This document shows, piece by piece, positions 20,001 through 32,378 of a DNA stretch of 52,114 bases. The notes under the pieces are model-generated. The model did no database searches, was not told the origin of the DNA, and worked only from the letters and a program-made list of their open reading frames with translations. Position 1 is the first letter of the stretch, and every line of letters begins with the position of its first letter. Source of the stretch: Methanobrevibacter sp. GTDB taxonomy: Archaea > Methanobacteriota > Methanobacteria > Methanobacteriales > Methanobacteriaceae. The translations under genes were made by a program, and so were the position numbers. The stretch is taken from assembly GCF_017468685.1 (NCBI RefSeq), contig NZ_JAFUHT010000021.1:1-52114 (forward strand). Reading direction: 5' to 3'.

Positions 20001-21171
20001 ACAGATTATTGATATTGTTTAAGGCAATTACTCCTGCTTTGAGTTTGGACAATCCATCTTTCAGCAATTTCGGCGGACATGCAATATTCAGCCTTAAAAA
20101 TCCATCGCCGACCTCCCCAAAATCACTTCCAGCTGACAAAAAGAGTCCCTGATTCTGGCGAAGGAATTCCTTAAGGACATTTGATGAAACGTTGAGTTTT
20201 CTGCAATCAAGCCACAACAAGTATGTTGCATCACAGTCAATCAGTTTTATTATCGGAAGTTCACTTTCCAAAAATTCTTTTACTATCTGCTTATTTTCAT
20301 ACAGCACTTCTTTAAGTTCTTCAAGCCAGTCTTCAGAGTCATTGTATGCAGCTTCAACTGCACTTACTGCAAATACGTTGCATGAGTCTGAATTGTCAAT
20401 GTGGAGTTGTGTTTTTATTCTTTCAAGCAGTTCTGTGTTTTTTGAGTATACCACTGAACTTTGAAAGCCAGCAACATTGAAAGATTTGGAAGGTGATATA
20501 GCTAGTATACTATTTTCATAGTCACTTGATGTCATGAATGGATTATAATGCTTTCCAGGGTCAGTTAAATCACAGTGAATCTCATCAGATACCAAAATAA
20601 CATTGTGTTTCTTGCATAATTCACCTATTTGTTTGAGTTCATCTTTTGACCATATTTTGCCGACAGGATTTTGAGGGTTGCACAGTATCATCATCCTGAC
20701 CTTTGAGAGCTTCTCATCCAAATCATCAAAATCGATTTTATATTCCTCATCTTCATAAATCAATTCGTTTTCAACTACCTGGCGATTATTATCCCGAATC
20801 ACATAAAAGAACACATGATAAACCGGTGATTGGATAAGAATAGCATCATTTTCATCTGTCAGGCATCTAATCATTGAGGATATTGAAGGCATCACTCCTG
20901 TTGCATAAAGCATTTCTTCACGGGACATCTTGAAATCGTATCTCCTGTCCCACCAGCTGACATATGCTTCAAAGAGTGAATCCGGTATGATTGAATAACC
21001 ATATACCGGATGAGAGGCTCTTTTTAAGATGGCATTTTCGATTGCTGGAGCAACCTTGAAATCCATATCTGCCACCCACATGGGAGCATCATCATCAAAC
21101 AAATCCCACTTAAGTGAGTTGGTATTTTTGCGGTCAATTACTGTTTTAAAATCGTAGTTAGTATTTTTCAT
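19987..21171 (-). CDS. MalY/PatB-type C-S lyase (cystathionine beta-lyase)
   Basis: PLP-dependent aminotransferase-fold enzyme that splits cystathionine or cysteine S-conjugates to thiol, pyruvate and ammonia. 394 residues. It shows the family start (YDFKTVIDRKNTNSLKWD), MWVADMDFKVAPAI, the NPQNPVGKIWS loop, VSDEIHCDL and the PLP lysine in SPSKSFNVAGFQ. A longer frame opens at 21222 but the ATG at 21171 has GAAAGGAT at the right place and matches the family N-terminus; this gives a 14-base overlap with the nitroreductase gene, hence coupled translation. Confidence 0.93.
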   Translation of the reverse strand: MKNTNYDFKTVIDRKNTNSLKWDLFDDDAPMWVADMDFKVAPAIENAILKRASHPVYGYSIIPDSLFEAYVSWWDRRYDFKMSREEMLYATGVMPSISSMIRCLTDENDAILIQSPVYHVFFYVIRDNNRQVVENELIYEDEEYKIDFDDLDEKLSKVRMMILCNPQNPVGKIWSKDELKQIGELCKKHNVILVSDEIHCDLTDPGKHYNPFMTSSDYENSILAISPSKSFNVAGFQSSVVYSKNTELLERIKTQLHIDNSDSCNVFAVSAVEAAYNDSEDWLEELKEVLYENKQIVKEFLESELPIIKLIDCDATYLLWLDCRKLNVSSNVLKEFLRQNQGLFLSAGSDFGEVGDGFLRLNIACPPKLLKDGLSKLKAGVIALNNINNLSKNI

Positions 21172-21676
21172 AATGTATCCTTTCTTCGTCAAATTTATCC
21201 AAGAACTTGTTTTCCCATCCATCTGCAGGATATCCTAAAGTGATTATGCAGTACGGTTTGGTTTCAGTAATGTCATCTATTCCTATGATTTTACCTATTG
21301 CTTTCATCCTATCTTCTTCAGGTGCAACTCCATTCCAAAGTCCTCCTAATCCGAGATTTACAGCTTCAAGCAACATGTTTTCAGCTGCCGCGCCCATATC
21401 CTGTTGCCATACAGTTTTATAGAAGGATCTTTCAATATTAGCAACCAATACAATTGCTACAGGCGCATTGGTTACACGTGGTTTGATTTCACCAAGTTTA
21501 GCCAATGTATCCTTGTTTTTGATTACTACAAACTCCCATGGTTCAGCTCCAAGCCTTGAACCAGGAGCCTGCATTCCAGCCTTTAAGATTTTTAAAATAT
21601 CCTCATCACTGACTTCCTTATCATCATACTGACGAATGCTTCTTCTTGTGTTTATTATTTCTTCAAAATCTACCAT
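21158..21676 (-). CDS. Nitroreductase-family flavoprotein
   Basis: A 172-residue FMN enzyme: RRSIRQYDDKEV, MQAPGSRLGAEPWEFVVI, DMGAAAENMLLEAVNLGLGGLWNGV and ITLGYP. It is clearly a paralog of the nitroreductase at 4972. Start at the ATG at 21676 (MVDFEEIINTRRS) is preferred to 21700 because it matches family ends. Coupled to the MalY-type lyase, it may act in thiol or nitro/quinone detoxification, but the sequence does not fix its substrate. Confidence 0.88.
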   Translation of the reverse strand: MVDFEEIINTRRSIRQYDDKEVSDEDILKILKAGMQAPGSRLGAEPWEFVVIKNKDTLAKLGEIKPRVTNAPVAIVLVANIERSFYKTVWQQDMGAAAENMLLEAVNLGLGGLWNGVAPEEDRMKAIGKIIGIDDITETKPYCIITLGYPADGWENKFLDKFDEERIHYEKY

Positions 21677-21737
21677 ATTCTTAAATAATAACGTCATCAT
21701 ATATAAAAATTAGTTTATCAAATGGAGGTGAAGGTGA

Positions 21738-23212: not shown

Positions 23213-23818
23213 TTATTTGCTTAATTTTGAGCCAATTTCAAAAACAGTGTTCAAATCATTATTGAACTGCTTTTGTTTTGCTTTTAATTCCTCATCTGAT
23301 GAATTGGATGAAACATTCTTGGATATATTGGAAAAAGTCTCAATGACAACCTCACCATTTAGCATCTTAAACAAATCCTCAGACTGTTTGATATGAGGCC
23401 TTACTGACTTTTCAAAGTAATCCATCGAATAGTTGATTGTATAAAACAGTCCCACATTGACCTTGCCCTTAAACTTGTTTCCACTCTTATATGAAACAAT
23501 GCAATATATCAACCTTTCAAGCAATGCCATGAAATGGCTTGTAGGCTGTGAAAAGAATATTGGAGCTGCAATCAAAAGACAATCCGATGATAGAATCTTT
23601 TCAATGACAGAAGAGAGTTCATCCCTCCAATAGCACTTGCAGATTTCCTCATCATTTTTACATATTAAACAGACTCTGCAGCCTGAGAGATTCAGCTTAT
23701 ATAAATCTATATATTCGACATCAGCGCCTGCTGATTTGGCACCATCAGCTGCAGACTGTGCCAGCTGCGCATTTATATCCTTTCTTTTGGGACCGGCATT
23801 AATCACGATTGCCTTCAT
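23213..23818 (-). CDS. Flavodoxin-like flavoprotein with Cys-rich iron-sulfur-type loop (second copy)
   Basis: A 201-residue NAD(P)H-FMN reductase-fold protein. MKAIVINAGPKRKD is the phosphate-binding start for FMN. GCRVCLICKNDEEICKCYWRD is a four- to five-Cys insertion, as in archaeal iron-sulfur flavoproteins of the Isf group. APIFFSQPTSHFMALLERL is the conserved FMN isoalloxazine region. It overlaps its upstream paralog by 4 bases (ATGA), so they are made together. Function as a redox carrier or quinone/oxygen reductase is an inference. Confidence 0.85.
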   Translation of the reverse strand: MKAIVINAGPKRKDINAQLAQSAADGAKSAGADVEYIDLYKLNLSGCRVCLICKNDEEICKCYWRDELSSVIEKILSSDCLLIAAPIFFSQPTSHFMALLERLIYCIVSYKSGNKFKGKVNVGLFYTINYSMDYFEKSVRPHIKQSEDLFKMLNGEVVIETFSNISKNVSSNSSDEELKAKQKQFNNDLNTVFEIGSKLSK

Positions 23819-24447
23819 TTGGATAGCTCCGCGCCAATCTTAAATGCCTTTTCCAAATCCTTGGGAAACTGCAAAATCCATTGCTTTTCCTTTGCTTCCT
23901 GACTGAAGCCTGCCATGTTGAACTTGGAATAGTCACTGACCTGAATGGTGTCACAGACTGGATATGAAGTGACTTCACCATTTAAAAATGAGAACAGAAA
24001 TTCTGTTTTTGCCAGATTATCCTTCATTGAATCCTCAAAAAACTGCAATGGAGCGTTCATAGTGTAAAACAATCCGACATTAATCTTGCCAGTGAAATAG
24101 CTTGAACCGTCATCATATGAAAGCACACAAAATATCAATCTTTCAATCAAAGCCCTGAACTCAGCAGTAGGCTCACCGAAATATATTGGAGTGCCGATAA
24201 GCAAGGTGTCAGCTGCCAGAATCCTTTCAATTATTGGGGAGAGATTGTCCCTCCAATAGCACTTGCACTTTTCCTTTCCCTTAAGTTTGCAAACAAGACA
24301 GCTCCTACAACCCTTAAAATCAACATCATACAAGTTAATGTATTCAGTTTCAGCACCAACAGATTCAGCACCCTTTTGAGCAGACTGCATGATTTCTGCA
24401 GTGTTCCATTTCTTTCTTGGACTTGCATTGATTACAACAGTTTTCAT
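23815..24447 (-). CDS. Flavodoxin-like flavoprotein with Cys-rich iron-sulfur-type loop (first copy)
   Basis: A 210-residue paralog of the next gene. FMN start MKTVVINASPRKKWNT; Cys loop GCRSCLVCKLKGKEKCKC; FMN region TPIYFGEPTAEFRALIERL. The pair probably works as a heterodimer or as two redundant enzymes; a tandem copy with a 4-base overlap favours fixed stoichiometry. The ATG is preceded by GAGGG. Confidence 0.85.
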   Translation of the reverse strand: MKTVVINASPRKKWNTAEIMQSAQKGAESVGAETEYINLYDVDFKGCRSCLVCKLKGKEKCKCYWRDNLSPIIERILAADTLLIGTPIYFGEPTAEFRALIERLIFCVLSYDDGSSYFTGKINVGLFYTMNAPLQFFEDSMKDNLAKTEFLFSFLNGEVTSYPVCDTIQVSDYSKFNMAGFSQEAKEKQWILQFPKDLEKAFKIGAELSK

Positions 24448-24508: not shown

Positions 24509-24715
24509 TTAATCTACATTCAGTGCTTCATTAACTTCATTTAGAAATTTTTCAGAATGTAGTTTCCTGAAAGTATCATCATTGCAATTATCACCCATTA
24601 ACCCACGATTAATATAATTTGAAATTAATTCATTAACGGGAATATTTACTTGATTAGCCTTCTCTTCAACCAATTTTTTAAGTTTTTCATTTTGAAACTC
24701 ATATTGAATATTCAT
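24509..24715 (-). CDS. VapB-like antitoxin (second antitoxin)
   Basis: A 68-residue protein whose middle, KANQVNIPVNELISNYINRGLMGD, resembles the same region of the 77-residue antitoxin upstream (KSNKLGISLDELIERYIRRGLYGD). It starts 8 bases after the PIN toxin, with GGTGAAAG ahead of the ATG. The helix-turn fits a small DNA-binding antitoxin. It thus makes a three-gene locus with antitoxins on both sides of the toxin. Confidence 0.75.
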   Translation of the reverse strand: MNIQYEFQNEKLKKLVEEKANQVNIPVNELISNYINRGLMGDNCNDDTFRKLHSEKFLNEVNEALNVD

Positions 24716-24723
24716 ACTTTCAC

Positions 24724-25119
24724 CTACATTGCAAAAATCACATCTAATATATCTATTTTTCTGAAATCTGAATCAAATGAAACGATTGTATCAATACCCA
24801 TTCCCATCATAGTGTTGAGAATTGTACAATCACTATAATTAATGGAATTTCCGAACCAAGCACTAACTTCTAAAGATTGTTCATAATCTTCATCAGTTAG
24901 TTGGACTACTTTATTTTTTGCATGCAAATCATCATGAACTTTTTTGACAATATCATAAGAACCAGTGACTCTGTTTAATGTTTCAACAAGTACTGTAGTA
25001 TTAATCACAGTTTTTTCATTCTGTTCATTGATATAATCTTTAATTTTCAAAGATTCATTATGATAAGGATCTTTATCATCATGTAATGCTTTAAAATAGC
25101 CACTATCTAAAAAAATCAT
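24724..25119 (-). CDS. vapC: PIN-domain toxin RNase (VapC-like)
   Basis: A 131-residue PIN nuclease. The four acidic catalytic residues are in place: Asp5 (FLDSGYF), Glu46 (VLVETLN), Asp97 (NYSDCTI), Asp116 and 118 (SFDSDF). VapC toxins cut tRNA or rRNA when the antitoxin is lost. A strong ribosome binding site, GGAGGG, precedes the ATG. Flanked by two related small antitoxin genes, one before (24 bases gap) and one after (8 bases gap). Confidence 0.88.
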   Translation of the reverse strand: MIFLDSGYFKALHDDKDPYHNESLKIKDYINEQNEKTVINTTVLVETLNRVTGSYDIVKKVHDDLHAKNKVVQLTDEDYEQSLEVSAWFGNSINYSDCTILNTMMGMGIDTIVSFDSDFRKIDILDVIFAM

Positions 25120-25142
25120 TACAATCCCTCCAATAATATAAA

Positions 25143-25376
25143 TTATTCCCTTTTTGAAGGAATACTATTTTTCTTATCCCTTTCCATATTTCTTTTAAAT
25201 ATTTCATCGATTTCTTTTTTGGAAAGTTGAGGTTGAGTGTAATAATCATCACCATATAAACCTCTTCTGATATACCTTTCAATTAATTCATCCAAAGAGA
25301 TGCCTAATTTATTTGATTTTTTAATTAATTGCGCTTTTATCATTTCATCACCAATTAATGTTTCTTTATCAGACAT
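25143..25376 (-). CDS. VapB-like antitoxin (first antitoxin)
   Basis: A 77-residue protein, first gene of the toxin-antitoxin operon, with GAGGTG as ribosome binding site. KSNKLGISLDELIERYIRRGLYGDD matches the antitoxin after the toxin. The C-terminal tail is charged and rich in Lys, as in toxin-binding tails. DNA contact and operon repression are expected but not shown. Confidence 0.75.
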   Translation of the reverse strand: MSDKETLIGDEMIKAQLIKKSNKLGISLDELIERYIRRGLYGDDYYTQPQLSKKEIDEIFKRNMERDKKNSIPSKRE

Positions 25377-27397: not shown

Positions 27398-27769
27398 CTA
27401 TAATAATTTTTCCTTGAAGGTTGTTTTCAAGTCGTTTCTGATTTTATCAGAGTAATTTTCACTGTCGACTGTTACCATGGCGATTTCATATAATACCTTG
27501 TTTAATGATTCGCCTTTTTCTGTCAATTTGTATTTCACGTTCTTTTTGTCTATTTTATCAACGATTTTGTGAATCAAGCCGTTTTTCTCCATATCTTTTA
27601 GACAGTTGCTTAAAACCTTGTTTGAAAGATCTGGTTTTCCTTCCTTGAATTCATGAAATCTGGTTTTGCCAAAGAACAGGTCTCGGATTATGTGGATAAC
27701 CCACTTTTTTCTTATTAAATTTACAACTAATTCGATAGGACATTTTTTTATATGTTTAGTCATGGTCAT
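27398..27769 (-). CDS. HxlR-family winged-helix regulator 1
   Basis: A 123-residue DNA-binding protein: KKCPIELVVNLIRKKWVIHIIRDLFFGKTRFHEFKEG...LSNKVLSNCLKDMEKNGLIHK is the complete HxlR winged helix. The N-terminal Cys10 in the CPIE motif is the thiol-sensor position of YodB/HypR/QorR relatives, which respond to quinones and electrophiles. Divergent from the first precursor peptide with 166 bases between; it is therefore a candidate regulator of it. About 60% similar to the second HxlR at 28420. Confidence 0.9.
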   Translation of the reverse strand: MTMTKHIKKCPIELVVNLIRKKWVIHIIRDLFFGKTRFHEFKEGKPDLSNKVLSNCLKDMEKNGLIHKIVDKIDKKNVKYKLTEKGESLNKVLYEIAMVTVDSENYSDKIRNDLKTTFKEKLL

Positions 27770-27802
27770 TGTAGTTTCCTCCTAAAAATCAGTCGGCTAT
27801 AT

Positions 27803-27925
27803 TACCTGCTTTTTTATAGTATATAAACCTTTCGGTTTTTCAGGTAGTGAGTGAATGGTTACGAAAAGCATTTATATACCATTTACATAAGTTTGTATTG
27901 AAAGTTGCAGCAATGTGGCTTTCAA
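27803..27925. promoter_or_regulatory. Divergent control region of HxlR1 and precursor 1
   Basis: Minus strand: TATA box GGTTTATATACTATA bracketed by TACCTG (27803-27808) and CAGGTA (27841-27846). Plus strand: TATA-like CATTTATATACC about 27869-27880, inside near-inverted GTGAATGG/CCATTTAC. Leader of precursor 1: hairpin TTGAAAG/CTTTCAA (27898-27925), immediately before AGGAG. Confidence 0.5.
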
Positions 27926-27944
27926 AATTTAGGAGATGGCAAAA

Positions 27945-28199
27945 ATGTTTAAATTAAACAGTTGGAATGAAAATGAAAAATTTTCCCCAAACAAAATTGC
28001 ACAAGATGTGATTAATACTCAGAGAGACAAAAGCATAAACACTAGCTGTTGTGTTGACACAACAAACCTAAACATGATCGAGACATCTTGTTCAAGCAGT
28101 ATAAAAACAAGTTGCTGTATTGATACAACCAAAATCCTACCAGGCCCATGTGGTAGCGATATCCAAACAAGCTGTTGTATCGATACAACTAAAGAGTAA
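27945..28199 (+). CDS. RiPP precursor peptide 1, CxxD core with SCC(I/V)DTT repeats
   Basis: An 84-residue peptide. The start at 27945 gives MFKLNSWNENEKFSPNKIAQD, 19 of 25 residues identical to the leader of the ACGX precursor at 31558; AGGAG lies 9 bases ahead. The core is Cys-rich and repeats in steps of 8: SCCVDTTN, SCSSSIKT-SCCIDTTK, then CGSDIQT-SCCIDTTK. Four of the five units carry C-x-x-D; one is CSSS. The leader identity and repeated Cys core mark it as a second substrate of the nearby radical SAM enzyme, not a protein with its own activity. Followed by a hairpin terminator. An alternative start at 27936 adds MAK. Confidence 0.8.
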   Translation: MFKLNSWNENEKFSPNKIAQDVINTQRDKSINTSCCVDTTNLNMIETSCSSSIKTSCCIDTTKILPGPCGSDIQTSCCIDTTKE

Positions 28200-28214
28200 G
28201 ATATTAATCTTACT

Positions 28215-28242
28215 CTTATATTATTAGTTTCACTAATATAAG
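28215..28242 (+). terminator. Terminator of precursor 1
   Basis: CTTATATTA/TAATATAAG arms with 10-base loop followed by TTTTT, 15 bases after the stop codon. Confidence 0.8.
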
Positions 28243-28326
28243 TTTTTGTAATTAATCAGCAAAAAAAATAGATTTAACCTCCAAAATAATTAATCCCCAT
28301 TAATTGTTTCATAGGATTTCCAAAAA

Positions 28327-28399
28327 GGGAATTTTTTGAGGCAACATTAGTTTGCCGCTACTACGAATCTAAACCGAATAGATGAACTCCCACTTTCCC
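28327..28399 (-). ncRNA. Candidate structured RNA element, two hairpins in an outer stem
   Basis: Outer arms GGGAA/TTCCC (28327-28331, 28395-28399) enclose GGCAA/TTGCC (28340-28356) and ATCTA/TAGAT (28367-28383). Higher GC than surroundings. On the minus strand the last arm is followed by TTTTT. It may be the 3' end of the HxlR2 message or an independent RNA; the stems are short and unproven. Confidence 0.3.
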
Positions 28400-28419
28400 A
28401 AAAAAAAATCAAAAAATTC

Positions 28420-28806
28420 CTAACCATCTTCTTTTAAAAGAGCATCATTAAAGACTATTTTTAATTCATCAACACGTTCTTCGGAATAGTATTTATCTGC
28501 AAGATCACTTGTCAAGGTAAACATTGCAAGCTCATACAACACTTTATTTAAAGCCTGACCTCTTTCAGTCAGTTTATATTCAATACTGTCTTCAAGCTCA
28601 TGCCTTTTTATAAGCTGGTTTTCCTCCATGTCCTTAAGGCAATGACTCAATACCTTATTTGACAATCCGGGTTTATCCTCCTTAAATTCATTGAAACGGG
28701 TTTTGCCAAAAAACATGTCCCTTAAAATTTGAATAACCCACTTTCTGTTAATCAATTGCATTGCCAGTTCAATCGGACATATACTTGCATCACTATCAGT
28801 TACCAT
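28420..28806 (-). CDS. HxlR-family winged-helix regulator 2
   Basis: A 128-residue protein with the same CPIELAMQLINRKWVIQILRDMFFGKTRFNEF...LSNKVLSHCLKDMEENQLIKR winged helix as HxlR1 and the same sensor-type Cys (Cys10). It lies between precursor 1 and the maturation operon. Its promoter has a near-palindromic AAGTAACCTGGAGGTAACTT (28851-28870) just upstream of the TATA-like ATTATTTATATTAAA. Likely regulates itself and possibly the flanking maturation genes. Confidence 0.9.
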   Translation of the reverse strand: MVTDSDASICPIELAMQLINRKWVIQILRDMFFGKTRFNEFKEDKPGLSNKVLSHCLKDMEENQLIKRHELEDSIEYKLTERGQALNKVLYELAMFTLTSDLADKYYSEERVDELKIVFNDALLKEDG

Positions 28807-28850
28807 TTAATCACTAATTAAAAATTTATGATTTAATATAAATAATTTTT

Positions 28851-28870
28851 AAGTAACCTGGAGGTAACTT
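28851..28870. promoter_or_regulatory. HxlR2 upstream near-palindrome with GTTAC half-sites
   Basis: AAGTAACC-TGGA-GGTAACTT; on the minus strand GTTAC appears twice, 11 bases apart. Located just before the TATA box of HxlR2 and between it and the terminator of the maturation operon. The same GTTAC unit occurs in a perfect palindrome at 32010-32031. Confidence 0.5.
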
Positions 28871-28892
28871 AATTGAAAAAAAGAAAAAATAA

Positions 28893-28913
28893 AGCTATAA
28901 TTTAATTATAGCT
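28893..28913 (-). terminator. Terminator of the radical SAM operon
   Basis: AGCTATAA/TTATAGCT with 5-base loop overlaps the stop of the flavin-ferredoxin gene, followed on the minus strand by TTATTTTTTCTTTTTTT. Confidence 0.8.
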
Positions 28914-29500
28914 GATGTTGGACAATTTTCAAAGCACCTGCCACAATGTAAGCAGTGCTCTTTCATGATTTCATAAGGAGTGCCCTCATTTATCGCATGC
29001 TGCGGGCAGGCTCCAAAGCATGTTGCACAACCCACACAGACATCAGTAATCTCAAATCCCTTAGGCGTAATCCTACCATTGCCCAAGGTGAATGATTTTC
29101 TGTAAATTGGATTTTGTGTAAGGTCAAAAAACTCCATTTCACCATCTTCAATGCAGAAAGGCTCCAGAATATATCTTGCAGCTCCAGGATAGACATTGTT
29201 CAGGAACTTGTTTTCATCAAACATCAAATCTATCCAGTATTTCTGGTCATCCAGCTTATGTGCCTTACCACTTATCCTGATGGTCTTGTTGTTGTTCAAA
29301 CACAAATAGCTGACCTGCGGATGGTTTAAAATCTCTTCATAGACATGTTTTCCACGGGCTGTCAAGAAATATATCCTGTCATCCTCAATATACATTATAT
29401 CAATGATTCTTGATTGAGGATTGCCATTTTTGTCAACTGTGGACAATGTCGCATCTATAACTTCTCTCAATTGCTTGAAACACTCTTCTTTTGTTATCAT
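28895..29500 (-). CDS. PPOX-type flavin protein fused to a 2x[4Fe-4S] ferredoxin
   Basis: A 201-residue fusion. Residues ~1-130 form a pyridoxamine-phosphate-oxidase-like FMN domain (ATLSTVDKNGNPQSRIIDIMYI, VSYLCLNNNKTIRISGKA). Residues ~150-200 carry two clusters, CVGCATCFGACP and CLHCGRCFENCP. It can pass single electrons from a flavin to [4Fe-4S] clusters, which suits reduction of a radical SAM enzyme. It overlaps the oxidoreductase gene by 4 bases and is the last gene of the maturation operon. Whether it acts on the peptide or supplies electrons is an inference. Confidence 0.88.
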   Translation of the reverse strand: MITKEECFKQLREVIDATLSTVDKNGNPQSRIIDIMYIEDDRIYFLTARGKHVYEEILNHPQVSYLCLNNNKTIRISGKAHKLDDQKYWIDLMFDENKFLNNVYPGAARYILEPFCIEDGEMEFFDLTQNPIYRKSFTLGNGRITPKGFEITDVCVGCATCFGACPQHAINEGTPYEIMKEHCLHCGRCFENCPTSAIIKL

Positions 29501-30483
29501 TTTTCTAACCTGAATATTATTTTTCCATAAGCTTTATTTGACTCCATCAGCTCATGAGCCTCACCTATATCCTCTAAATCAGTGAAGACCCTGCCAATCT
29601 TTGGATTGATGTCATTTTCCGCAACGAAAATATACAATTCATCAATCAGTTCCTGAGTAGGATAGTTTGAGAAAAATGAAGTCAAATACCTGTCATTAGG
29701 TATTGATTTGATAGGATCAAATTCCACAATATACTCTTCACCACCTAAAATTCCAGTATTACAGCATATTCCACCTTTTTTCAAGCATTTCATTGAATCT
29801 TCGAGGGTTTTTGGACCAACAAATTCCAGAACCTTATCTACACCCTCAGGACATATTTCCCGTACATTATCTTCAATATTTCCATCATCTATAATTACAT
29901 AATCTGCACGGTTTAATAAAAGATTTCCAACTTTATTTTCATTTCTTGTTGTGGCAATTATTGTCGCTCCTATTGCATCAGCCAACTGCATTGCTGACAA
30001 TCCTGCAGCAGATGTTGCACCACGAATTAAGATAGTGTCATCCTTTTTAAGTTTTAATGATTTGATTGAACCGAATGCAGTAAAATATGTTTCAGGAATT
30101 GAAATTATCTCCTCAATTAATAAATATCCGAAAACGCACTCAGGTATTTTGAAGACATTCTTTTGGGGAAGCAATGCATACTCAGCATAAGATCCATCAA
30201 ATGACCTTCCCATTCCACCCATCAGACCAACAACAATGTCACCCTTCTCAAAATGAGTGTTTGACGGGTCAATTATCTCACCTACACACTCTATACCCGG
30301 TATCACAGGCAAATTGATATAATCTTCATCCGCTTCATGGTCCCTAAGCACAATTTCAGAACGATTAATTCCAAATCCGAGCACTTTAACCAGTAGCCAG
30401 TCAGGCTTGACTTCAGGAATTGGAACTTCACTTACCTTTAATTCATTAGCTTTGCATGTTTTTTCAAGTACGACCGCTTTCAT
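29497..30483 (-). CDS. Zinc-free MDR oxidoreductase, quinone-reductase type
   Basis: A 328-residue medium-chain dehydrogenase/reductase. GHSL-type zinc Cys are absent; the NAD(P) fold shows TILIRGATSAAGLSAMQLADAIGATIIATTRN, typical of quinone oxidoreductase and enoyl reductases. Its ATG overlaps the radical SAM stop by 4 bases (ATGA), with AAGGTGAT as ribosome binding site, so the start is at 30483 and not 30501. The tight coupling says the two proteins are made together. A role in reducing the matured peptide, or in redox stress as with QorR-controlled quinone reductases, is possible. Confidence 0.88.
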   Translation of the reverse strand: MKAVVLEKTCKANELKVSEVPIPEVKPDWLLVKVLGFGINRSEIVLRDHEADEDYINLPVIPGIECVGEIIDPSNTHFEKGDIVVGLMGGMGRSFDGSYAEYALLPQKNVFKIPECVFGYLLIEEIISIPETYFTAFGSIKSLKLKKDDTILIRGATSAAGLSAMQLADAIGATIIATTRNENKVGNLLLNRADYVIIDDGNIEDNVREICPEGVDKVLEFVGPKTLEDSMKCLKKGGICCNTGILGGEEYIVEFDPIKSIPNDRYLTSFFSNYPTQELIDELYIFVAENDINPKIGRVFTDLEDIGEAHELMESNKAYGKIIFRLEK

Positions 30484-31508
30484 TCTATCACCTTCCAACA
30501 TTGAGGATCTGACGAATACATATTATTAGTGTATCCGTAGCTTACTGCAGGACATCCTCTGCAGAATCTTAAAAGTTCACATTTGCTGCATTTTTCAAAG
30601 TTCTCGAATTGCCTGTAAGTGTCCATTTCTTCACCTGTGAAAATTTCAAACAAATCATCTGTCAAGGCATTTCCAACTTTACTGTCCATTCTTCGGCATG
30701 CAAAGACATCTCCTGTCGGTAGTATTGTCATATGACTGTTTCCACAGTTGCAACCATCATATATTACATCACTTTTTAGGTTTTCAGGGATTTTAAATAG
30801 TCCCTTTTCATATAAAAATAATGTCCATAAGTGATCCTTTAAATTGAAATATGTATTGGATTGCTGGTATTCATTATATTTTTCCCATACTTTTTCCAAA
30901 AGTTGCTTATACTCTTCTGGTGTGACATGGGATGTGTCATCATCTCCTGTTGGACAGTATCTTGCAAAACTGAATAGTCCAACCTGTTTTTGTACAATAA
31001 CATCAATGAGTCTTGGAATTTCATCTATATTGACATTGGACACTGTTGTCATTATGCTTGCCCTTACACCGGCGTCCTGCAATGTCTTGATTTTTTCTAA
31101 GGTTATGTCAAATGAACCTGGTTTTCTAAAATAATCGTGAGTTTTCCTTAGTCCATCTAAGGATAATTGGTATTGTCTGCAGCTTAAATCTGCTAATCGT
31201 TTACATACATCATCTGTTAAGTGAAATGGATTTCCCATTATACTGTAGTCAATCTCTTTTTCATATAATATTTCAAGCAAATCCCAGAAATTAGGATGTA
31301 GAATCGGATCTCCTCCAGTTATGCTGAAATATGGTTTGCGGTTTGTTTTTCTACACATTTTTAAGGCGTTTTCAATTACTTTTTCCATGTCCCGGAAGTT
31401 CATTGTGTGTAGTTCTTTGTCATTATCTTCAGCAAAGATGTAGCAGTGTTTACATCTTTGGTCACAGTCATCTAAAATATGCCATTGAAATGCAAAATAA
31501 TCTGCCAT
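30480..31508 (-). CDS. Radical SAM/SPASM peptide maturase (ACGX-type system)
   Basis: A 342-residue radical SAM enzyme. Cys15, 19 and 22 form CxxxCxxC for the SAM cluster; FSITGGDPILHPNF is the GGxP SAM loop. The SPASM region holds Cys253, 255, 271 and CX2CX5CX2C (307-319) plus Cys337, enough for auxiliary clusters. SPASM enzymes of this size, placed 49 bases after a repetitive Cys-rich precursor, install thioether or C-C links in the peptide. The layout matches what I recall as the 'radical SAM/SPASM, ACGX system' family. AAGGAGG precedes the ATG. Followed by overlapping oxidoreductase and ferredoxin genes. Confidence 0.92.
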   Translation of the reverse strand: MADYFAFQWHILDDCDQRCKHCYIFAEDNDKELHTMNFRDMEKVIENALKMCRKTNRKPYFSITGGDPILHPNFWDLLEILYEKEIDYSIMGNPFHLTDDVCKRLADLSCRQYQLSLDGLRKTHDYFRKPGSFDITLEKIKTLQDAGVRASIMTTVSNVNIDEIPRLIDVIVQKQVGLFSFARYCPTGDDDTSHVTPEEYKQLLEKVWEKYNEYQQSNTYFNLKDHLWTLFLYEKGLFKIPENLKSDVIYDGCNCGNSHMTILPTGDVFACRRMDSKVGNALTDDLFEIFTGEEMDTYRQFENFEKCSKCELLRFCRGCPAVSYGYTNNMYSSDPQCWKVIE

Positions 31509-31537
31509 TTAAAAGCCTCCTTAAAAAAAAAGAATTT

Positions 31538-31565
31538 GATTTTAAGATTGGATAATCTTAAAATC
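31538..31565 (-). terminator. Attenuator between ACGX precursor and maturase
   Basis: A 12-bp perfect stem GATTTTAAGATT/AATCTTAAAATC with 4-base loop includes the precursor stop codon. On the minus strand it is followed by TTCTTTTTTTTT, then AAGGAGG and the maturase ATG. Partial termination here would give many precursor messages and few maturase messages. Confidence 0.85.
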
Positions 31566-31929
31566 TGTCTGATCCACAAGCTGTTGTGATGTCAGAGCCA
31601 CAAGCAGTATTAATATCTCCACCACTTGCAGTATTAATGTCACTACCACAAGCAGAAGCAACAACATCAGAGCCACAAGCAGTATTAATATCTCCACCAC
31701 ATGCAGTATTAATGTCACTACCACAAGCAGAAGCAACAACATCAGAGCCACAAGCAGTGTTAATATCTCCACCACATGCAGTATTAATGTCACTACCACA
31801 AGCAGAAGCTGTGACATCACTGCCACATGCAGTATTAATGTCACTGCCACAAGCAGTTGCAATTACGTTTTGTGCAATTTTAGATACAGAAAAACTTTCG
31901 TTTTCATTCCATGCGTTTAATTTAAACAT
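31558..31929 (-). CDS. RiPP precursor peptide 2, ACGX-repeat peptide
   Basis: A 123-residue peptide: 25-residue leader MFKLNAWNENESFSVSKIAQ-NVIAT, then 12 repeat units of 7-9 residues, ACG(S/G)D(I/V).T. Eleven units have C-x-x-D; unit 10 reads ASGGD because TGT became AGT. Residues 34-108 form three copies of a 25-residue block (ACGSDVxAS, ACGSDINT, A(C/S)GGDINT). No signal peptide. AAGGAG precedes the ATG by 8 bases. It is the first gene before the radical SAM operon. The matured product and its fate are unknown. Confidence 0.92.
   Translation of the reverse strand: MFKLNAWNENESFSVSKIAQNVIATACGSDINTACGSDVTASACGSDINTACGGDINTACGSDVVASACGSDINTACGGDINTACGSDVVASACGSDINTASGGDINTACGSDITTACGSDRF
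31606..31830 (-). repeat. Three 75-bp higher-order repeats in the ACGX gene
   Basis: Three near-identical blocks of 75 bases encode residues 34-108. They differ by few bases, among them the TGT to AGT change at 31624-31626. Such repeats expand and contract by unequal recombination or slippage. Confidence 0.85.
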
Positions 31930-32009: not shown

Positions 32010-32031
32010 ATAGTTACTTAAAAGTAACTAT
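32010..32031 (-). terminator. Terminator of the Spx/ArsC-like gene, or GTTAC operator
   Basis: A 10-bp perfect palindrome ATAGTTACTT-AA-AAGTAACTAT overlaps the stop codon, followed on the minus strand by TCTCTTTTTATTT. It also contains the GTTAC...GTAAC unit found at HxlR2 and lies just upstream of the precursor 2 promoter, so it may serve as a regulator site too. Confidence 0.6.
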
Positions 32032-32378
32032 AATAATTTTTCTTCCCATTCCTTGACTTTAAAACCCACTAAAACAGTATCATCACTTACAAGGATTGGT
32101 CTTTTCACAAGCATTCCATCAGTAGCTAAAAGATCCAATTGTTCATCCTCAGACATGTCTAGAAGCTTATCTTTAAGTTTTAATTCACGATATTTCATTC
32201 CACTGGTATTGAAGAATCTTTTAAGAGGCAACTCGGAGATTTCCCACCATTTCCTTAATTCTTCAGCAGTAGGATTGTCTTCAACAATATGTTTTGATTC
32301 ATATTCTAAATCATGTTCCTCTAACCAGTTTTTAGCTTTACGGCAAGTGGAACATTTCGGATAATTAACAAATAACAT
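32028..32378 (-). CDS. ArsC/Spx-family thioredoxin-fold protein
   Basis: A 116-residue protein with CSTC (NYPKCSTCRKAKNWL), a redox CxxC as in Spx and some arsenate reductase homologs. The RP motif (KRPILVSDDTVLVGFK) near the end is the family's hallmark. Family members reduce arsenate or, as Spx, contact RNA polymerase under disulfide stress. In Bacillus the HxlR protein YodB controls spx, so its place next to two HxlR genes is suggestive. Which activity this one has is not clear. Confidence 0.85.
   Translation of the reverse strand: MLFVNYPKCSTCRKAKNWLEEHDLEYESKHIVEDNPTAEELRKWWEISELPLKRFFNTSGMKYRELKLKDKLLDMSEDEQLDLLATDGMLVKRPILVSDDTVLVGFKVKEWEEKLL

Follow-up and report, generated by a model that had tools for sequence, protein, structure and literature searches.

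The window analysed here, a stretch of 52,114 nt from the gut methanogen Methanobrevibacter sp. (contig NZ_JAFUHT010000021.1, assembly GCF_017468685.1), contains at positions 27398-31929 a locus of the kind that makes ribosomally synthesized and post-translationally modified peptides (RiPPs). Two precursor peptides with one and the same leader are encoded around a single radical S-adenosylmethionine (SAM)/SPASM maturase, AcgM, together with redox partners and two regulators of the HxlR family, and this arrangement is conserved in other genomes. It is not a new class, but a two-precursor variant of the ACGX system, which is named in NCBIfam yet uncharacterised. The enzyme family had already been named, and what is new here is the second precursor, the shared switch and the predicted chemistry. 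We propose a two-substrate archaeal ACGX system, in which the core cysteines would be oxidised to rings and both peptides would respond to a common HxlR switch, and we give this account as a whole a probability of about 0.42.

Two precursors and one maturase

The leaders of precursor 1 and precursor 2 are identical at 19 of 25 residues, and the best of 200,000 shuffles reached 10, which rules out a chance likeness. When C-x-x-D is counted in every open reading frame (ORF) of the window, the two precursors rank at the top, with 11 in precursor 2, 4 in precursor 1 and 2 in the next. The gene of precursor 2 lies directly upstream of AcgM, and one of its ACGxD-type units has lost the Cys. Precursor 1, with 84 aa and 8 Cys, is read from the second ATG (27945), whose AGGAG is better spaced, an upstream ATG at 27936 being possible. 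Its core differs from that of the nearest relative (L051) with a dS of 0.72 and a dN of 0.13, and the SCC[I/V]DTT unit shows synonymous codon variation at every position (23 units, 10 genomes). From these substitution patterns, precursor 1 is judged to be a real gene under purifying selection. The features of the locus are as follows.

31558..31929, minus strand: precursor 2 (AcgA-type, archaeal), 123 aa, leader MFKLNAWNENESFSVSKIAQNVIAT followed by 12 ACGxD-type units, 11 with Cys
30480..31508, minus strand: AcgM, radical SAM/SPASM maturase (TIGR04340), 342 aa, CxxxCxxC at C15/C19/C22 plus SPASM cysteines
29497..30501, minus strand: MDR-type NAD(P)H/quinone oxidoreductase (PIG3-like), overlapping AcgM by 22 nt
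28895..29500, minus strand: PNPOx-like split-barrel flavoprotein fused to a 2[4Fe-4S] ferredoxin, from family matches and AlphaFold2 (AF2)/Foldseek
28420..28806, minus strand: HxlR2 regulator (HxlR/DUF24 family), PF01638 match, N-terminal Cys conserved
27945..28199, plus strand: precursor 1, leader as in precursor 2, three SCC[I/V]DTT units, PCGSD and a degenerate SCSSS
27398..27769, minus strand: HxlR1 regulator, divergent from precursor 1, PF01638 match
32012..32029, no strand: operator-like dyad AGTTACTTAAAAGTAACT, upstream of precursor 2
28852..28869, no strand: operator-like dyad AGTAACCTGGAGGTAACT, upstream of HxlR2
27847..27862, no strand: degenerate dyad GTGAGTGAATGGTTAC, followed closely by the TATA-like TTTATATA of precursor 1 at about 27871

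The TIGR04340 rSAM_ACGX profile scores the window maturase at 577.8 bits, against a curated cut-off of 400. A preliminary description of this DNA had mentioned an ACGX radical SAM system of methanogens and had read here a RiPP locus of two flanking precursors with a common 25-residue leader, one radical SAM/SPASM enzyme, an overlapping oxidoreductase, a flavin-ferredoxin fusion and two HxlR regulators, and all of this is upheld. Its division of the cores into two types stands for the 11 intact ACGxD units of precursor 2 and the SCC[I/V]D units of precursor 1, but the types are not fully separate, as precursor 1 also has a CGSD unit.

AcgM is carried by 33 of 139 sampled Methanobacteriaceae genomes. 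Surveys of the families to which a Lachnospiraceae and a Bacteroidaceae member belong gave 54 of 397 and 9 of 251 genomes, respectively, and the phylum of a Synergistaceae member gave 24 of 188, yet literature searches returned no publication on AcgM, ACGX or TIGR04340. Apart from some genes that are absent or displaced, the order HxlR, ACG-repeat precursor, AcgM, nitroreductase or MDR, and PNPOx-ferredoxin is shared by loci of Lachnospiraceae, Bacteroidaceae, Synergistota, Collinsella and Methanobacteriaceae. By eye, a leader pattern like L-x-x-L-x-x-W-[N/G] is readable across phyla (MALSNLFGWN, MALKDLADWG and MSLKNLYAWN; archaeal M[FY]KLN[SA]WN). On a Roseburia plasmid, NCBI annotates precursor and maturase as acgA and acgM. 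The AcgA model, TIGR04341 (cut-off 28 bits), predates this analysis and matches neither window precursor (P0002, P0003). With it, the two archaeal relatives that were tested reach 12-14 bits, and peptides of Lachnospiraceae and Bacteroidaceae reach 59 and 69, so that among the peptides tested only bacterial ones are above the cut-off.

The second precursor type (TSCC[I/V]DTT) was found in 10 genomes, all Methanobrevibacter. Six of them (G000, G058, G040, G039, G052 and G055) carry both precursors and a single AcgM, which argues strongly that one AcgM serves both. Two others (G063, G091) have AcgM and precursor 1, with no precursor 2 found, G053 has two AcgM genes, and the tenth, G092, is cut off at a contig end. 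The locus L050, whose contig stops short of precursor 2, is not countable as a two-precursor case; the maturase tree labels it as having both. All precursor-1 genes that were found share their genome with AcgM, which rules out precursor 1 as an orphan. A single specialised maturase clade for precursor 1 is ruled out by the tree, in which two enzymes of precursor-1-only loci, L079 and L081, group and the third, L074, lies elsewhere.

Several loci of the wider set depart from the common form. In L069 (5542-5988), precursor 2 changes frame within the repeat array, through an assembly error or repeat slippage. In Methanosphaera sp. ISO3-F5, the cassette sits on the 174-kb plasmid pNP174, where the precursor is annotated just as hypothetical and AcgM as two ORFs (L202, 4001-5025), its reading frame in that record being interrupted by a stop or frameshift. 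A Tissierellales metagenome-assembled genome (MAG) has a distant AcgM relative (36% identity) with two downstream peptides, MKSLNELIWN...CGG/CGC (L020, 5181-5586), whose leader start is similar, and which are possibly a further branch of the ACGX system. Two Elusimicrobiota precursors (L014, 7680-7943; L215, 2581-2832) have TGC/GCG-type units in place of ACG and thus represent a further type of core within the AcgM family.

A putative shared operator and the redox partners

The dyad GTNAC-N6-GTNAC lies upstream of all 24 archaeal precursor-2 genes examined and of 9 of the 10 precursor-1 genes, where 0.01 promoters per set would be expected; the counts come from related genomes and not from independent cases, but the bases that separate and flank the half-sites differ. 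The spacing is 6 in 40 of 43 dyads. Most dyads stand about 90-130 bases ahead of the start codon, in many cases with a TATA-like sequence immediately downstream. Within the 2.28-Mb genome the exact 18-base dyad has only two occurrences, one in front of precursor 2 and one in front of HxlR2, and a genome-wide search relaxed to two mismatches gave noise (17 sites, compared with 41 for the reversed pattern used as a control). An N-terminal Cys is present in 22 of the 23 aligned HxlR regulators of these loci. Through such a Cys, YodB, CatR and HypR sense quinones, diamide and HOCl and control nitro- and azoreductases (PMC6943732), and HxlR senses formaldehyde (PMC7835342). The natural reading of the dyad is as a putative HxlR operator, and its placement points strongly to co-regulation of both precursors. 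The HxlR regulators would bind it beside the TATA box of both precursor promoters, and when their N-terminal Cys met a redox or electrophile signal, the two peptides would be switched in concert with the redox genes.

The AF2 model of the PNPOx-ferredoxin fusion is confident (predicted local distance difference test, pLDDT, 94.5), and its Foldseek neighbours are flavin mononucleotide proteins of the PNPOx/NimA type. This protein, which is kept in bacterial cassettes, probably carries electrons to or from AcgM. The place of the MDR enzyme is taken by a nitroreductase in most bacterial cassettes, and either enzyme may act in the same redox response; the exchange of one flavin- or NAD(P)H-linked reductase for another weakly suggests a thiol or electrophile response. 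The cassette contains no exporter, protease or immunity gene, so that a peptide acting on redox state, thiols or metals inside the cell is more likely than a secreted antibiotic. Most likely the product would stay in the cell as a peptide for thiol, metal or redox handling, a role for which the indications are weak. Such a system would tie a RiPP to a switch of the thiol-stress type in methanogens, with a bearing on the way in which methanogens of gut and rumen cope with redox stress.

Some other genes of the window are also of note. A nitroreductase-like gene lies at 21158-21700, about 9 kb from AcgM. A Spx/ArsC-like gene of the glutaredoxin fold (32028-32378) adjoins precursor 2, with a homologue nearby in at least seven relatives (L051, L059, L062, L067, L070, L074 and L081). 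At 23213-24447 stands a tandem pair of iron-sulfur-flavoprotein-like genes with a CRxCLxCK motif, homologues of which directly adjoin AcgM in the precursor-1-only locus L074 (4691-5932). A PIN-domain-like toxin gene flanked by two small antitoxin-like genes, recognised by eye only, occupies 24509-25376.

The chemistry of the core cysteines

The preliminary description reduced both cores to C-x-x-D and proposed a ranthipeptide-like crosslinking of Cys to Asp. The reduction holds in Methanobrevibacter, where all 81 core Cys of the precursor-2 type have an acid, Asp, at Cys+3. The acid is found at 92% in Methanosphaera (mostly Glu, some Lys) and at 72% in group g9, with Lys, Gly and Asn among the non-acid residues of methanogens, but it falls to 19% in Synergistota, 2% in Bacteroidaceae and 1% in Lachnospiraceae, and two of three Elusimicrobiota cores hold neither Asp nor Glu. 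C-x-x-D is therefore not the motif of the family. This positional survey found no acceptor residue conserved at a fixed distance from Cys across clades; only a small residue followed by Cys and Gly ([A/S/P]-C-G) is general. If AcgM performs one reaction throughout, that reaction cannot need Asp, and Cys-Asp crosslinking is rejected as the reaction of the family.

After TIGR04340 itself, the best model for the window AcgM is that of SbtM (TIGR04082), at 196.4 bits, followed by TIGR04053 at 127 and then by heme-synthesis SPASM enzymes. Lower still are anSME (74 bits), PapB (69.8, against a cut-off of 340) and the sactipeptide model StsB (64). All 31 AcgM-family sequences tested match SbtM, with the best E-value (3e-63) after TIGR04340. 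No SbtM above its own cut-off turned up in 299 genomes from the phylum of a Tissierellales MAG or in 199 from that of an Elusimicrobia MAG, and none is annotated among the plasmid matches. SbtM takes four hydrogens from a Cys to form a thiooxazole (PMC11002830), and the EGKCG repeats of captophorins are thiooxazole sites (PMC12668002). Because SbtM is the closest characterised family by score, only A/S-C-G is general and EGKCG offers a precedent, we favour a ring formed by the Cys itself. One AcgM would read the leader common to both precursors and oxidise the core cysteines, giving a 5-thiooxazole as by SbtM, with a loss of four hydrogens per site and no link to Asp. A thiooxazole-type oxidation is given somewhat less than even odds and is tentatively preferred to Cys-Asp thioethers; the ranking is drawn from profile scores and motif conservation, and the case for this chemistry is moderate to weak. 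With it, a guess specific to one genus is exchanged for a prediction that is family-wide, in which the chemistry falls on the Cys of A/S-C-G.

Several observations weigh against this account. The link between AcgM and SbtM rests on profile scores, and 196 bits is below the curated cut-off of SbtM (350), whose profile holds about 195 N-terminal positions absent from AcgM; the heme-synthesis SPASM enzymes AhbD and NirJ2 also exceed 100 bits. The SCC units of precursor 1 are without Gly, and the strict Asp at Cys+3 in the window's own genus still calls for explanation. The window's own precursor-1 dyad (27847-27862) has one broken half-site, the dyad being intact at that position in 9 relatives. 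The literature searches found no biochemistry of AcgM.

Thioethers of any kind, taken together, represent a sizeable minority of the expectation. Most of it belongs to links from Cys to acceptors other than a fixed Asp, either sactionine (sulfur to C-alpha) or ranthionine to varying residues, the acceptor not being the same in every clade. This is the rival that survives best, although it too is unlikely. Thioether formation is frequent among SPASM reactions on Cys-rich peptides. The AF2 model of AcgM (pLDDT 91) has as its closest folds in the Protein Data Bank, by Foldseek, SuiB, anSME, CteB and SkfB, and in Lachnospiraceae 93 of 200 Cys have an Asp at Cys+4, the CX3D spacing. Yet the acceptor position is not conserved across clades, whereas the neighbours of the Cys are (A/S before, G after), and the nearest model is SbtM and not a sactipeptide or PapB model. 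The AcgM chain also begins at the first barrel strand, leaving no room for an N-terminal recognition domain of the size of a RiPP recognition element, and by length it is unlike CteB, SkfB and SuiB.

Another radical oxidation centred on the Cys, such as a formylglycine-like product as in anSME, a desulfurisation, an epimerisation or a beta-modification next to the Cys, is a more doubtful candidate. It would suit the presence of anSME among the closest folds and the single Cys of A/S-C-G as the sole general motif, but nothing supports it directly, and the anSME profile gives just 74 bits.

Cys-Asp thioethers at C-x-x-D are slightly less probable again. In their favour are the complete conservation of Asp in the window's genus, the dominance of Glu in Methanosphaera and the retention of Asp in all 23 SCC[I/V]D units, which is partly by construction, as the pattern that gathered the units includes Asp. 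PapB, moreover, accepts both Asp and Glu at spacings of 0 to 6 (PMC9413430), but its natural motif is CX3D, it is distant from AcgM by score (70 bits, against 196 for SbtM), and the acid is confined to the methanogen branch, with Lys, Gly and Asn at the same position even there. The crosslinker of the preliminary description is thus not supported for the family, though a Cys-Asp link might still exist in Methanobrevibacter alone. Finally, it is very improbable that the peptides remain unmodified and act as structural or metal-binding proteins whose leader serves another function, since the AcgA-type peptide adjoins AcgM in archaea and several bacterial phyla and NCBI pairs acgA with acgM, even though Cys-rich acidic repeats could bind metal and the cassette has neither exporter nor protease.

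If Cys rings are indeed the product, many thiooxazole-type rings would be carried by two leader-sharing peptides, made by one radical SAM enzyme under a thiol-sensing HxlR switch in a strictly anaerobic archaeon. One may speculate, with the odds clearly against it, that the result is an intracellular poly-heterocycle peptide for redox or metal handling, a radical SAM counterpart of the captophorins that is distributed across several phyla of anaerobes from gut and rumen.

Comparison with known systems

The locus is closest to the bacterial ACGX systems (TIGR04340/TIGR04341), with which it has in common the maturase family, an ACG-repeat peptide alongside, and HxlR and PNPOx-ferredoxin neighbours. 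Unlike them, the archaeal precursors have Asp or Glu at Cys+3, those tested fall below the cut-off of the AcgA model, and Methanobrevibacter adds the SCC[I/V]DTT precursor. SbtM, the best other model, acts on a peptide Cys or Sec (PMC11002830), whereas AcgM, at 342 aa, is without the N-terminal part of that profile, scores below its cut-off and has no Sec in sight. Captophorins and bufferins likewise present repeated short xCG units (EGKCG) within one long precursor, but they are made by multinuclear nonheme iron (MNIO) enzymes with a partner protein (PMC12668002), and ACGX has a radical SAM enzyme. The PapB/freyrasin ranthipeptides resemble the methanogen precursors in placing Cys and Asp at a fixed short spacing; they differ in their CX3D motif, against CX2D in the window, in the weak PapB score, and in the acid itself, which the AcgM family does not conserve. 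In HypR-HypO and YodB-YodC of Bacillus, an HxlR/DUF24 regulator with an N-terminal Cys controls nitro- or flavin reductases (PMC6943732), as may be the case here, where the putative regulon would also include RiPP precursors and their maturase.

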